NCBI GenBank assembly: GCA_903842945.1
Contig: CAIMNS010000156.1
Span: 1-49,293 of the forward strand
Length of the DNA stretch: 49,293 nt
From: an uncultured Burkholderiales bacterium
GTDB lineage: Bacteria > Pseudomonadota > Gammaproteobacteria > Burkholderiales > Burkholderiaceae_C
Reading direction: 5' to 3'
Shown: piece after piece, positions 8,807 through 36,183 of the stretch
Position numbering within the stretch: the first letter of the stretch is position 1
Layout: every line of letters begins with the position of its first letter
Notes under the pieces: model-generated
What the model saw: the letters and a program-made list of their open reading frames with translations, nothing else
What the model was told of the DNA's origin: nothing
The model's database searches: none
Translations under genes and position numbers: made by a program

Positions 8807-10930
8807 ATGAAACGGATGCTTATCAATGCCACGCAAGCTGAAGAAAGACGCTTAGCGATCGTAGACGGTCAAAAATTACTTGACTATGAAATTGAAATTG
8901 AAGGAAGAGAACAGCGAAAGGGCAACATCTACAAAGCTGTTGTGACCCGAGTGGAACCTTCCCTGGAGGCTTGCTTTGTTGACTATGGAGAAGAACGCCA
9001 TGGCTTCTTGCCCTTCAAGGAAATTTCCAAACAATTTTTCAGCTCCAACATCTCTCCTAGCCAAGCTCGCATACAAGATGTGATTCGCGAAGGACAAGAA
9101 CTTTTGATCCAGGTCGAGAAAGAGGAGCGAGGCAACAAAGGTGCCGCGCTCACCACCTTCATCTCCTTGGCGGGCCGTTATGTTGTTTTGATGCCTAACA
9201 ACCCCAGGGGTGGCGGCGTGAGTCGGCGCATTGAAGGCGATGACCGTGCGGATCTCAAAGAGGCCATGGACCAGTTGGAATACCCCAACGGTATGTCCAT
9301 CATTGCCAGAACCGCTGGCATCGGTCGATCGGCGCCTGAATTGCAATGGGATTTGAACTATTTGCTCAAATTATGGGCGGCCATTGATGGCGCCTCCAAG
9401 GGTGGCAAAGGGGCTTTCTTGATTTATCAAGAGTCCAGTTTGGTCATCCGAGCCATTCGCGACTATTTCAACAATGACATCGGCGACATCTTGATCGATA
9501 CCGATGACATCTTTGATCAAGCTCACCAGTTCATGTCCCACGTGATGCCCGAGCACGCGGCCCGTGTCAAACGCTACAGAGATGATGCACCCCTCTTTAG
9601 CCGCTTTCAAATTGAACATCAAATTGAATCCGCTTACGCAAGAACGGTGAACTTGCCCAGTGGTGGCGCCATTGTGATTGACCACACAGAGGCCTTGGTT
9701 TCTGTGGACGTCAACTCCGCTAGAGCCATACGTGGAGGTGACATCGAAGAAACTGCCACGCGCACCAATTTAGAAGCCGCCGAGGAAGTTGCTCGTCAAA
9801 TGCGCTTGCGTGACTTGGGTGGCCTGATTGTGATTGACTTCATTGACATGGAGGAGTCCCGCAACCGCCGAGATGTAGAAAACAGACTTCGTGACTCATT
9901 GAGACAAGACCGTGCACGTGTGCAGTTCGGCACGATCAGTAAATTTGGCCTGATGGAGATGAGCCGCCAGCGTCTGCGACCCGCCTTGTCTGAGGGCGCC
10001 TCTATTCCTTGCCCGCGTTGTGGCGGCTCAGGACACGTCAGAGACACCGAGAGCTCAGCCCTTCAAATTCTCAGGATCATTCAAGAAGAGTCCATGAAAG
10101 ACAACACGGCGGCGGTTCATGCTCAAGTGCCCGTTGAAGTGGCTTCCTTTTTGCTCAATGAAAAACGCACTGAAATTGCCAAAATTGAGCTCCAGCAACG
10201 CATCAACGTCTTGCTGGTGCCCAACAAAGCCCTTGAGACGCCCAACTACAAACTCGATCGCCTCAAGCACGACGATCCACGTTTGGACAACATGGAGGCG
10301 AGCTACAAAATGGTCGATGAGATCGAAGACGTGACGGCAGTCACACGTCGCTCTCAAGAGCCCACCAACCGCCAAACACCGGTGATCAAAGGCGTCTTGC
10401 CTGATGCACCCGCACCCATGCACGAAACGAAACCAACCGTTCCTGCCGCGTCCAAAACACCACCCCAACCCGTCACCACCCAAGGCTCTGGTGGGGTGTT
10501 CGCTTGGATCAAGTCTTTGTTTGGCTCAGGAGAGGCCAAAAAAGCAACGCCAGCCACATCCAAGACTTCCAGTGACGCCAAAAGAGAAGACAAGCGCGAC
10601 ACCAAAGAGGCAAGAAACCCCAGGGACTCTAGACGCGGGGGACGCAGAGGCGATCGTGCTGATCGTCCTGAGCGTGCCGAACGCGGCGACAAAGCCCCAA
10701 GGTCGGAGAACACTGCCGAGCAAGGCACTGACGTCAACAACAGCAACGCCGAACCACGCGCCGCGCGCCCCCGCAATGCAAGAGGTGGTTCACGCAACGC
10801 TCAAAATGACCGCTCAACGGACACCCGCTCTCAAGATCCTCAGGCACGCACTGAACCCTTGAACAACGCAGAACTTGAGCGGGGAGAAACTGAGCAGCAA
10901 CGTCCAAGCAGACGTGAACGCGGCGAGTGA
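8807..10930 (+). CDS. rne: Ribonuclease E, catalytic half, ending at an in-frame TGA
   Basis: RNase E is the main endonuclease of mRNA decay and of rRNA/tRNA maturation. Residues 36-118 form the S1 domain, followed by the RNase H-like and 5'-sensor regions. The DNase I-like centre keeps the metal-binding Asp301 (SVDVNSARA) and Asp344 (LIVIDFIDME), and the Zn-link is CPRCGG (Cys402, Cys405), all at positions within two of E. coli Asp303, Asp346, Cys404 and Cys407. From about residue 510 the protein is an Arg/Glu/Asp-rich scaffold tail. The frame stops at codon 708 (TGA, 10928-10930) but continues open for 257 more codons. The catalytic half is complete, so the truncated product should be active. 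Confidence 0.93.
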   Translation: MKRMLINATQAEERRLAIVDGQKLLDYEIEIEGREQRKGNIYKAVVTRVEPSLEACFVDYGEERHGFLPFKEISKQFFSSNISPSQARIQDVIREGQELLIQVEKEERGNKGAALTTFISLAGRYVVLMPNNPRGGGVSRRIEGDDRADLKEAMDQLEYPNGMSIIARTAGIGRSAPELQWDLNYLLKLWAAIDGASKGGKGAFLIYQESSLVIRAIRDYFNNDIGDILIDTDDIFDQAHQFMSHVMPEHAARVKRYRDDAPLFSRFQIEHQIESAYARTVNLPSGGAIVIDHTEALVSVDVNSARAIRGGDIEETATRTNLEAAEEVARQMRLRDLGGLIVIDFIDMEESRNRRDVENRLRDSLRQDRARVQFGTISKFGLMEMSRQRLRPALSEGASIPCPRCGGSGHVRDTESSALQILRIIQEESMKDNTAAVHAQVPVEVASFLLNEKRTEIAKIELQQRINVLLVPNKALETPNYKLDRLKHDDPRLDNMEASYKMVDEIEDVTAVTRRSQEPTNRQTPVIKGVLPDAPAPMHETKPTVPAASKTPPQPVTTQGSGGVFAWIKSLFGSGEAKKATPATSKTSSDAKREDKRDTKEARNPRDSRRGGRRGDRADRPERAERGDKAPRSENTAEQGTDVNNSNAEPRAARPRNARGGSRNAQNDRSTDTRSQDPQARTEPLNNAELERGETEQQRPSRRERGE

Positions 10931-11704
10931 ACCGATGGCCGCCGAGAAAGAGGCGCTCGAAAAGGCTCTGAGCGACCCCAAAATGGTGAAGACACGCCAA
11001 GCCGCGGCAACAACGACCACCCGGCCCCAGCCACGCCCGAGCAGCACCTGGTTCAAGGAGATGCGCTGAACAACAACGACTCTAGCGCAGGTTCTATGAA
11101 TTCGGCCAATCCTCCTGAAAACAAAGAGAGAAGAGGGCGTGACCGTTATGGCAGAGACCGTCGAGAGAGAGCGCCTCGAGACAACGACAGCGCTTTGATC
11201 GATCAAGGACAGGCCCAAGATCTCACGGCGTTCGCATCGAACGAGAGCGCTGACAACACGTCACAAATCCGCCAAGGCTCCTACTTTGATGCGCCACAAA
11301 GCGCACCTCAAACAGCCGTGGCAAGAAGTGACAGTGCCCGAGCCGAGCCGAAGGCGGCGTCTTTAGCCCCCTCTTCAGTGCTGGCCCCCGCCAAGCAGAA
11401 CCTTGACCAAGCACCTTCAAAGCCTGCCCAGGCAGCCAAGATCGCCATGCCCAGCATTGCATCTTATGACTTGCCCGTAGAGTCCTTGATCTCTTTGACG
11501 CAGTCTTCCAATTTGCAGTGGGTCCAATCGGACCCCATCAAAGTGGCACAGATCAAAGCAAGCATTGCCAATGAACCCCGTGCAGTGCGTGTTCCCCGTT
11601 TGCGTCCTGCTCCTGTGGAGCTTCACGAAGGTCCACTGGTGTTGGTGGAGACGAAAAAAAATCTCAGTCAATTGAACTTGCCCTTCACCAACGACGCCAA
11701 ATAA
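10931..11704 (+). pseudogene. rne: C-terminal tail of RNase E, separated by one in-frame stop
   Basis: Starting directly after the TGA at 10928-10930, the rne frame stays open for 257 codons to TAA at 11702-11704. The residues right after the stop (TDGRRERGAR) repeat the Arg-rich pattern right before it (RRERGE), and the end of the frame looks like the conserved C-terminus of betaproteobacterial RNase E (SSNLQWVQSDPIKVAQIKA, then GPLVLVETKKNL). So this is the rest of one 965-codon gene. A CGA to TGA transition would explain it. Possibilities are a true nonsense mutation, a sequencing or assembly error, or stop readthrough. A weak internal restart at ATG 11096 is possible but unsupported. Confidence 0.85.
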
Positions 11705-11722
11705 GAGAGGCCTCAGGCAAGA

Positions 11723-11750
11723 CCGCGTTGACAACAACGCGGCTTTGCTT
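11723..11750 (+). terminator. Hairpin terminator candidate after rne
   Basis: CCGCGTT (11723-11729) pairs perfectly with AACGCGG (11736-11742) around a 6-base loop and is followed by a T-rich but broken tract (CTTTGCTT). It lies 18 bases after the last rne stop and between convergent rne and hemY, the right place for a terminator. Confidence 0.55.
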
Positions 11751-11843
11751 GAACAAAAGGTTTTAAAAGAAGGACCAAGGGAGCCCTGACCCAAGGGCCA
11801 AGGGATGGCAGGCTAGAAAGGCTTCAAGCAAGACGCTCGGGGT

Positions 11844-13142
11844 CTAGTGCTGCAGCAAGGCCGCCTGGCGCCAAAGTTCAAGCGCCTTTGCATGCTCGCC
11901 CTTTTGCTCCATCAACTGGGCCATTGCAATCCAAGCACGTCGTTGAAGACTGGGGGCCATGTTTCTATGACTGGCCAACTCCAAAAGTTGCTGCGCTTTG
12001 CCCCATAAAGCATGGTGCATGCATGTTTGCCCATACAAGTACTGCAATTCGGTCACTTGCGGGTGCGAACGCACCGCTTGTTCCAAGAGGTTCAAGTCGT
12101 GTGAATTCGGTGCCAAAGCCAAGATCACGCTTTGCAAAAATAAAACCAACTGTTCACGCATCTCAGGCGACAGGCTTTGAGGTTCTTTGTACAAGATCGC
12201 TCGGTCGTGGTCGAGCCACTCCTTGGCCATCTCAACCGAGCCCTCCAAGCTCAACAAACGCTTTGCTGCCAACATGCCAATGCCTTGCAGTTGGCGCTCT
12301 TTGGCCTCCAAACGACCCCAGGTTTTGAGCAACTGCGCCTCATCTTTGGCTTGTGAAAGACAAGATGCAATGAGGCTTTTCAACAAGCTTTGGGCCACAC
12401 TGGCAGAGAAGGCGCCATGCTTGGCCAAGAGCTTGGCGGTCTCCAGGGCGAGTTCATTGTGCTCGCTCAAGCGAGCAGCCTTGAGCCTTAACCTTAAAGC
12501 CACCGTCCTTCTAGCTGCACCAGCGGACAATTGCGCCAAACTCGACAAGGCCGCCTGAGGGTCTTTGTCCGACAAATGCCACCGAGTCGCCAACAAATGA
12601 CTGGTCTCCATGGGCTCGACATGAGACATCACCTGCAAGGCTCTTGACCACGACAGGGCTTTTTCAAAGTGGGACTCTCGCCCGACTTGGTCTCTCAAGG
12701 CGTGTGCCGCCTCGGCGTGAATCAAATGCAGCATGCATTGAAGCTCAGACAGATAAATTTCTGAGAGCGCATGCTCCATGCGCCCAGAGTTCAAATCTTG
12801 CAAAAGCACCAAGGCTTTGTGAGCAGACTTTTGAGCGCGAAGATAGCGACCTGAAGAGAGCTGAAAAATCGATTGCAACAGCCCTTGTTGAACGGCCCTT
12901 TCCTTTTGCAGCAATCGCCACCTCTGAGCCCTTTGGGGCAAGTCCACCAAAAGCTGGGTGCCCCTGAGGGTGACATACAAGGCAAGAAAGCTAAAACCCC
13001 ATAACAACATGACCAAATTGAGCGAGAGATCGACTCTGTAGGGTGGCCAAAAAAGTGTGACCACACCTTGATTGGCACCCAAAAAAATGGACAAAGCCAC
13101 GGCCACTGCAAACAAGAACAAAAACCAAATGGCAGCGCGCAT
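11844..13142 (-). CDS. hemY: HemY-like protein, inner membrane TPR protein of the hem cluster
   Basis: A 432-residue protein of the proteobacterial HemY family (not the Bacillus protoporphyrinogen oxidase of the same name). Two N-terminal membrane helices are visible (residues about 2-22 and 39-60: AAIWFLFLFAVAVAL and LNLVMLLWGFSFLAL), followed by a long all-helical region of tetratricopeptide-like repeats. The family is linked to heme biosynthesis by position; a biochemical role is not established. The start chosen is ATG 13140-13142 (MRAAIW), one base after the hemX stop, giving the membrane helix at the extreme N-terminus as in relatives; an open frame extends 9 codons further upstream. 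Confidence 0.88.
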   Translation of the reverse strand: MRAAIWFLFLFAVAVALSIFLGANQGVVTLFWPPYRVDLSLNLVMLLWGFSFLALYVTLRGTQLLVDLPQRAQRWRLLQKERAVQQGLLQSIFQLSSGRYLRAQKSAHKALVLLQDLNSGRMEHALSEIYLSELQCMLHLIHAEAAHALRDQVGRESHFEKALSWSRALQVMSHVEPMETSHLLATRWHLSDKDPQAALSSLAQLSAGAARRTVALRLRLKAARLSEHNELALETAKLLAKHGAFSASVAQSLLKSLIASCLSQAKDEAQLLKTWGRLEAKERQLQGIGMLAAKRLLSLEGSVEMAKEWLDHDRAILYKEPQSLSPEMREQLVLFLQSVILALAPNSHDLNLLEQAVRSHPQVTELQYLYGQTCMHHALWGKAQQLLELASHRNMAPSLQRRAWIAMAQLMEQKGEHAKALELWRQAALLQH

Positions 13143-24630: not shown

Positions 24631-25221
24631 TCAACTGAAATCCTCAAGCAAACTGGCCAATGCATTGGAGGCAATGCTCACTTGTGCTGCGTAGTGCAAA
24701 TGGTCACAGCCCAGTTCCAGCGCTTGGCCGCCCTTCAAAGACGCCATCATCTCCTGGGGTAACTCAAAGCGAAGAAAATGAACCGCGGATGTTTTTTCAT
24801 GGTTGTGGCGCACCAAGTCTTCATCGGCAAGGGCATAAATCCTCTCTTGGCCCCGAAGCTGAACAAACAAGCGCTCTTCAACACCAACAAGACTGGACAA
24901 AGCGCGTTGACGCTCCAGGGGGTCCGGGTACTGCAGCAGCAAAGTGGCACTCCAATTGTTGCCCTTGGGCACCAAGGGCTCATAGGCATCGATCTGTGCT
25001 TGAACACCGATTTCATCAACAATTTTCTCTGTTCTGAGCATCTCTTGAATTTGATAACGAATGGTCAGTTCGCTCTCAAACTGAACCGTCATGTGCGCTC
25101 CCAAAGAGATGCTTCTGAGCTGTCTGTGCGCCATGAGATCCGCACGGTGCTGTTGCCTGTACTTTGCATAAGCCTCCAGAGACATCAAATTGTCAAGTCC
25201 AATGTATCCCAGTTTTTTCAT
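24631..25221 (-). CDS. DUF3501 family protein
   Basis: A 196-residue cytoplasmic protein that I place in the DUF3501 family from its overall pattern: the N-terminal LMSLEAYAKYRQQHRADLMAHR and RSISLGAHMTVQFES, then EPLVPKGNNWSATLLL and YPDPLERQRALSSLVGVEERLFV, and the C-terminal HFLRFEL. The function is unknown; the family is typically encoded beside rubrerythrins, as here, which suggests a part in oxidative stress defence. GAGG lies 9 bases before the ATG, and the rubrerythrin stop is 69 bases upstream. Confidence 0.75.
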   Translation of the reverse strand: MKKLGYIGLDNLMSLEAYAKYRQQHRADLMAHRQLRSISLGAHMTVQFESELTIRYQIQEMLRTEKIVDEIGVQAQIDAYEPLVPKGNNWSATLLLQYPDPLERQRALSSLVGVEERLFVQLRGQERIYALADEDLVRHNHEKTSAVHFLRFELPQEMMASLKGGQALELGCDHLHYAAQVSIASNALASLLEDFS

Positions 25222-32424: not shown

Positions 32425-32512
32425 GCCGAAGTGGCGAAATAGGTAGACGCAGCAGATTCAAAATCTGCCGGTGCAAAACACCGTGCCGGTTCGATTCCGG
32501 CCTTCGGCACCA
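32425..32512 (+). tRNA. tRNA-Leu (anticodon CAA)
   Basis: An 88-base tRNA including an encoded CCA end. The acceptor stem GCCGAAG (32425-32431) pairs with CTTCGGC (32502-32508). The anticodon stem GCAGA/TCTGC encloses loop TTCAAAA, giving anticodon CAA, which reads UUG. A long variable arm (CGGTGCAAAACACCG) and the T-arm GCCGG-TTCGATT-CCGGC fit a class II leucine tRNA. It lies 22 bases from the start of the divergent cysM; a CATAAT hexamer at 32400-32405 could be its -10 box. Confidence 0.96.
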
Positions 32513-35121: not shown

Positions 35122-36183
35122 TCATCTTTGCCTTTGAACACCCAGGCCCTCTTTGGGGCTTGGGTAACAAAGTTTCAGCCCCAGAGATTTTTTCATTCTC
35201 TTGTTGTCCAGTTTTCTAGACTCAGCCAAAAAACTCATCTGCATGGGGCTCAGGTGCGCCTGGATCTCCTCAAACGACATTCGAACAGGTTGGGGCAAAT
35301 TGAACCATTGCGCCACCAAGCCGTAGTAGTCCCCCATCTTGATTTGTGCATCGTCGCTCACATGAATGGCTTGTAGGTTCTGGCCTTTGAACAAAGCGAG
35401 GACGCAGGCGCGGGCCAAATCGTCTGCATGGATGTGGTTGGTGTACACGTCGTCTGCGGGACTTAGAACAGGCATGCCCTTTTTGACACGATCTATCGGC
35501 GTTCCCCCTTCTCGGTCCAAGGCATAAATGCCTGGAATTCTGAGCGTGCTCAGTTGCACCCCCTGCAAAGAGCGGCGAGCCCACAGACGCAGTTGCTGCT
35601 CGGCATCCACCCGTCGACGTGCTCGGTCACTTTGAGGGTTGACGAGTTGCGTTTCTTTGACCCATTGGCCATGACAGTTGCCATACACACCCGTTGTAGA
35701 TCCATAGACTATTTTTTGAGGTGGCTTTCTGAGCGCCAAAGCACGGAGCAGGGATCTTGTTCTTTGGTCTTCACGACCTTGGGCTGCAGGTGGCGCCAAA
35801 TGGAGCACCTTGTGCGACAGGCCCGCGAGCCGAGGAAGCGTTTTGGGATCATCCAAGTCGCCCAAAAGAGGCCTCGCACCCCCATCCCTCAAGGCCTGGA
35901 TCTTTTCAGGACTTGAAGTCAAAGCCACGACCCGGCAATGCTTGGTCAATTGAGGCAAGGTTCGCATGCCAACATCACCACACCCCACGATCAACACTTG
36001 GGTGCGTCTAAAACGAGCAGGCAAAGCGCCCAAAGAGGATGAATGGACGGACACGAACAGTTGTTTAAAAAGGTGAATGAAAGACCAAAGGCCATGAAAG
36101 CGTCTGCCATGGATGGCCTGTGCACTTAGAAATTTTCTCACAATAACCAAGGCCAGTGACAAACCCTCAAAAAATGCCCGCAC
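35122..36183 (-). CDS. NAD(P)-binding SDR protein (YeeZ-like epimerase/dehydratase family)
   Basis: An extended SDR-fold protein. The nucleotide site VLIVGCGDVGMRTLPQL, the later HLAPPAAQGREDQRT, YGSTTGVYG with the catalytic-type Tyr region, RIPGIYALDREGGTP and TNHIHADDLARAC are visible. It resembles YeeZ, whose reaction is unknown. The frame gives 353 residues, but the first 60 have no similarity to the fold; a GTG at 36052-36054 would give a 310-residue protein closer to family size. The longer frame also overlaps none of the divergent reductase, whose ATG is at 36272. The start is uncertain. Confidence 0.8.
   Translation of the reverse strand: MRAFFEGLSLALVIVRKFLSAQAIHGRRFHGLWSFIHLFKQLFVSVHSSSLGALPARFRRTQVLIVGCGDVGMRTLPQLTKHCRVVALTSSPEKIQALRDGGARPLLGDLDDPKTLPRLAGLSHKVLHLAPPAAQGREDQRTRSLLRALALRKPPQKIVYGSTTGVYGNCHGQWVKETQLVNPQSDRARRRVDAEQQLRLWARRSLQGVQLSTLRIPGIYALDREGGTPIDRVKKGMPVLSPADDVYTNHIHADDLARACVLALFKGQNLQAIHVSDDAQIKMGDYYGLVAQWFNLPQPVRMSFEEIQAHLSPMQMSFLAESRKLDNKRMKKSLGLKLCYPSPKEGLGVQRQR

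Follow-up and report, generated by a model that had tools for sequence, protein, structure and literature searches.

An in-frame TGA behind the catalytic half of rne in a Burkholderiales draft genome: a probable recent nonsense mutation or a possible sequence error

Introduction

How should a single stop codon be read when it lies in the interior of an otherwise intact rne gene: as a truncation borne by the cell, as a readthrough site, or as an error in the sequence? The question is raised by a stretch of 49,293 nucleotides (the window, here meaning the whole of the DNA analysed), which is contig 156 of the draft genome of an uncultured Burkholderiales bacterium (GenBank assembly GCA_903842945.1, contig CAIMNS010000156.1). 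The draft consists of 313 contigs totalling 3.2 Mb and is 97% complete. Its host would appear to be a Limnohabitans-like freshwater comamonad; the nearest relative compared (G018) carries an intact rne of 970 residues, 90% identical over the first 706, and the remaining near relatives are mostly drafts from Comamonadaceae or Burkholderiales. In the open-licence literature no papers connect RNase E with Limnohabitans, and among the matches listed no title or abstract opening describes a natural rne nonsense allele; the available excerpt of PMC4435900 contains nothing on betaproteobacteria.

The rne frame and its interior stop

The frame opens with an ATG and runs for 707 codons to a TGA, after which it stays open in the same phase for a further 257 codons and closes with a TAA (Table 1). 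This ORF analysis bears out an earlier note on the DNA, which had described an otherwise intact rne interrupted by one in-frame TGA after its catalytic half. An open run of 257 codons has a chance probability of ~1.2e-4 at the base composition of the tail, and the remaining five frames of the same segment hold 4 to 11 stops each. In a tblastn search, all 970 residues of the G018 protein align to 8807-11701 at 81% identity, with a single stop near its residue 709. The same note had proposed a change from CGA to TGA, a C-to-T substitution that is plausible at best: among nine aligned relatives an arginine codon stands opposite the TGA in three (CGT, CGG and CGC), and the alignment is gapped at this point in the other six, one of which is the nearest relative. 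The hairpin found 3' of the full frame is weak, since the scan returned four terminator-like sites on both strands against 2.0 expected.

Table 1. Features of the rne locus, in coordinates of the window
Feature	Position	Strand	Basis
Translated rne, RNase E 1-707 plus TGA	8807..10930	+	ORF; S1, RNase_E_G and small thioredoxin-like domains; Rne/Rng subfamily cut-off passed
Zinc link CPRCGGSG, residues 402-409	10010..10033	+	Read from translation
Probable membrane-targeting amphipathic segment GVFAWIKSLFGSG, residues 563-575, retained	10493..10531	+	Position; similar segments in aligned relatives
First Arg-rich stretch, residues 609-627, retained	10631..10687	+	Translation
In-frame TGA inside repetitive RER/RGE stretch	10928..10930	+	ORF; alignment with nine relatives
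Frame open for 257 codons after the TGA, with homology to the C-terminal region of relatives' rne	10931..11701	+	Alignment; tblastn
Second Arg-rich stretch RRGRDRYGRDRRERAPRD, lost from short product	11129..11182	+	Translation; alignment
Conserved C-terminal block (MPSIASYDLP...GPLVLVETKKNLSQLNLPF...), lost from short product	11447..11701	+	Motif in relatives; 53-sequence alignment
TAA, end of full frame	11702..11704	+	ORF
Terminator-like hairpin 3' of full frame	11723..11742	+	Pattern scan, weak

The gene is single in the genome, the sole other match being an RNase G-like gene that is 37% identical, so that another rne was ruled out. A further copy of the tail was likewise ruled out for the bin, as the tail and its C-terminal block occur once. 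Between the window and G018, 43 query frames were matched. Two were set aside, one being antisense and containing a stop, the other a paralogue at 23% identity; in the 41 gene pairs that remained, rne is the sole gene with an interior stop, the one stop seen in another pair, at residue 9, lying ahead of the start codon used in the window.

The two sequences are collinear except for an extra stretch near 24.6-25.7 kb. This stretch holds a DUF3501 gene at 24631-25221 (-) and ~1 kb of extra sequence, up to ~25720; in G018 the two flanking genes are separated by ~460 bases. ARAGORN placed a tRNA-Leu at 32425-32512 (+) and a tRNA-Ser at 35857-35957 (-), inside frames with orthologues in G018; both are probably false calls.

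Domains upstream and downstream of the stop

Residues 1-707 carry, in order, the Pfam domains S1 (36-116), RNase_E_G (120-389) and a small thioredoxin-like domain (401-485). They score 515.5 bits against TIGR00757, the Rne/Rng subfamily model (cut-off 325.95), and 823.7 bits against NF008074, the RNase E equivalog, whose cut-off is 908 and of whose 1068 positions the 707-residue query spans 1-716; the RNase G equivalog gives 321 bits, under its cut-off of 594. The catalytic domain and the CPRC motif both lie upstream of the TGA, and CPRCGGSG we take to be a zinc link, by analogy with E. coli RNase E. The amphipathic segment further along is, by analogy and from its position, probably a membrane-targeting helix; similar segments occur in the aligned relatives.

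What the translated product lacks is the scaffold tail with its conserved C-terminal block, which is encoded only after the TGA. Searched alone, the tail matches no Pfam or NCBIfam family at E-values up to 1. Its last ~85 residues are nevertheless conserved in these Burkholderiales, with six invariant columns in an alignment of 53 sequences that includes 52 relatives (alignment A1). The block belongs to no Pfam family, weak matches being confined to just one or two of the 53 members, and a search for solved structures gave no credible relative, the one match having an E-value of 0.83. AlphaFold2 models it as two short helices, with a mean pLDDT of 77.6 and a pTM of 0.29; these short predicted helices and the low pTM would speak more for a linear module that binds a partner than for a folded domain. 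Conservation of the block argues that its loss costs fitness, which counts against a truncation allele.

RNase E in related genomes

Loci with identical first 600 residues were collapsed into one, and an RNase G-like locus (L002) was excluded, as were three in which no start was found (L017, L030 and L085), although L017 and L030 do reach the conserved end. Of the 90 distinct relatives that remain, 83 have a complete rne, encoding proteins of 878-1040 residues (median 976), with no interior stop in any. In every one of the 83, the last 60 residues include the C-terminal motif, ..LVLVET.. or a sequence close to it, so that the far end of the window's frame, which the earlier note had likened to a conserved C-terminus, is just that; relatives ending naturally at the point of the TGA, which would have told against the note's account, are absent from the set. 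In the seven incomplete relatives the gene is cut by contig ends at residues 608-882 (six) or by an N gap from residue 616 (one), past which another frame continues to the conserved end.

The wider family sample comprised 299 genomes, 296 of which were matched. Among the best 150 matches by score, a selection that includes the window and below which weak or broken genes may rank, a clean in-frame stop occurs in none of the 149 others. Open frames shorter than 800 residues number 6 of these 149: three short frames (G297, G098 and G183) stop at contig ends, at residues 554-651, those of G193 and G107 are likewise attributed to contig ends, judged from coordinates alone, and in G197 (L118) the gene looks frameshifted and contains ambiguous bases. 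The last is a single-contig genome of the same family, where the conserved end is again encoded in the original phase, and the frameshift is probably a matter of sequence quality. With 83 of 83 complete genes at full length, and no clean stop in the 149 matches listed, neither a truncation allele nor an error of this kind is common at rne.

The Arg-rich repeats of rne are a frequent site of breaks or an N gap in drafts (L006, L023, L025, L026, L028, L079, L095 and L119-L121), and such breaks also hide the C-terminal block from annotation. Three of the records (L061, L072 and L076) are public drafts titled Bordetella parapertussis, Akkermansia muciniphila and Rickettsia typhi; their rne genes are of the comamonad type, 79-84% identical to that of the window, and the titles look wrong.

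Selection on the tail

Polarisation by two outgroups assigns 14 amino-acid changes in the tail to the window branch and 21 to the G018 branch, with 51 more differing positions that were not polarisable, compared with 19 and 20 changes, respectively, upstream of the TGA (Fisher p 0.49; for the tail, binomial p 0.31). The conserved C-terminal block has 4 changes on the window branch and 5 on that of G018. For the pairs window-G018 and G018-L033, dN/dS is 0.30 and 0.27, respectively, in the tail and 0.16 each time in the block; these values are rough, since synonymous divergence from the outgroups approaches saturation. The share of the window branch over which the tail could have evolved neutrally is at most ~16% for a tail omega of 0.3 (9% at 0.2 and 25% at 0.4), a bound made rough by its reliance on amino-acid counts and an assumed omega.

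Neither the counts of changes nor dN/dS reveal relaxed selection in the tail. Since changes are not in excess and dN/dS is similar in the two pairs, the tail has been under ordinary constraint until recently, or is so still. Such unrelaxed selection is equally compatible with a recent nonsense mutation and with a sequence error, and both of these readings from the earlier note survive the comparison. As the stop is absent from the relatives compared and selection on the tail is not relaxed, the stop is either private and recent or an artefact.

Competing explanations

The reading favoured here, with a probability of about 0.58, is that a private and recent nonsense mutation truncates rne within its disordered scaffold half. 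The 14 tail changes of the window, set beside the 21 of its nearest relative, are what would make the loss of the tail recent. The organism, or a fraction of the population that the draft represents, would then produce RNase E 1-707, which would keep the catalytic core, the zinc link, the probable membrane helix and the first Arg-rich stretch; with these retained, the essential RNA-processing activity should survive, and with it the viability of the cell. Loss of the second Arg-rich stretch and the C-terminal block, in turn, would probably change how the enzyme recruits partners and binds RNA, and how bulk mRNA decays.

Somewhat doubtful, though the nearest competitor, is the reading of the TGA as a consensus or assembly error, or a strain-mixture artefact, within the repetitive stretch, the real gene being full length. 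An error would suit a draft of 313 contigs and a TGA set in Arg-rich repeats, where the contig ends and N gap of relatives cluster, yet it would have had to spare the frame, which continues unshifted from one side of the TGA to the other, and to arise in a bin that holds no second partial copy. It would likewise suit a tail under ordinary constraint and a stop seen in no compared relative; on the other hand, the 83 complete relatives are mostly drafts by title and show no such error in rne, and the 41 gene pairs offer no other interior stop. The weights given to mutation and to error are a matter of judgement, and none of the results separates the two.

Functional readthrough of the TGA, the remaining possibility raised by the earlier note, or its recoding, from which RNase E would be made in a short and a full-length form, is very improbable. 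UGA is the leakiest stop codon and a constrained tail would be expected if it were still translated, but no compared relative has a stop at this position, and the single 76-nt fold computed 3' of the TGA, as a candidate stimulating RNA structure, is no better than shuffled sequences (z -0.83). TGA serves as an ordinary stop here, ending 18 of 37 intact window genes that were chosen by hand from the ORF list, and release factor RF2 is present in the genome, whereas selA had no match in this 97% complete assembly in a search that was positive in 4 of 14 control genomes. Selenocysteine was rejected on the lack of a selA match, and an altered code on the presence of RF2 and the 18 genes that end in TGA.

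It is equally hard to credit a long-established split, in which the lineage has long been without the scaffold tail or makes it separately. An in-frame ATG at 11096 would give a product of 202 aa that includes the whole conserved block; this first in-frame start, however, lies 165 bases past the stop behind a weak AGG, is not a methionine in the nearest relatives, and has no promoter-like site in 10800-11850 to serve it, and the tail shows no excess of amino-acid changes.

An extension of the nonsense-mutation reading, and a speculative one with little weight, is that a wild freshwater Limnohabitans-like population carries the scaffold-truncation allele at appreciable frequency, perhaps favoured through mRNA stabilisation, with a leaky UGA supplying a little full-length enzyme. 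If true, such an allele would be a natural counterpart of laboratory-evolved rne truncations.

Comparison with known RNase E truncations

Comparable truncations are viable in other bacteria, making the 707-residue product credible as a working enzyme, and their tolerance at E. coli residue 702, P. aeruginosa residues 529 and 588, and Bordetella residue 578 makes a truncation plausible at the site of the TGA. What follows draws on excerpts of the cited papers. The closest in length is that of E. coli Evo21(DE3), in which an IS1 insertion truncates rne after residue 702 of 1061, and which arose under selection for tolerating toxic expression (PMC8361080). The two are near-equal in length (702/1061 and 707/964) and retain the catalytic half, but where the E. 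coli lesion is an IS1 insertion obtained by laboratory selection, the window has a point stop in an environmental genome. The E. coli rne131 allele, encoding RNase E 1-584, was isolated in a suppressor screen and is reported to stabilise bulk mRNA (PMC8361080). It likewise retains the catalytic half and removes the scaffold, although it is shorter and derives from that screen; as with an rne131-type allele, the stop in the window falls after the catalytic half of a gene that is intact in close relatives.

The RNase E scaffold of P. aeruginosa has Arg-rich and REER-repeat motifs that bind RNA; the rne529 and rne588 mutants are viable, although their colonies are smaller and growth is slightly affected (PMC11964227). 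C-terminal scaffold is cut away there, as it would be by the stop in the window, but those alleles were engineered and have lost all of these RNA-binding motifs, whereas the window retains its first Arg-rich stretch. Bordetella provides a betaproteobacterial case, in which RNase E 1-578 changed many transcripts with no growth defect reported in the excerpt (PMC8386462); unlike the stop described here, it is an engineered deletion of 465 residues.

Set against these systems, the truncated rne adds one more case to a known type of lesion; a mutation of recent date or an error in the sequence is the most likely source, rather than a new kind of system. If an error, it would mark the Arg-rich repeats of rne as weak spots of draft genomes. 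If real, it would be a natural nonsense allele that takes away part of the RNase E scaffold in a betaproteobacterium, and would show that loss of the distal scaffold is not confined to the laboratory.
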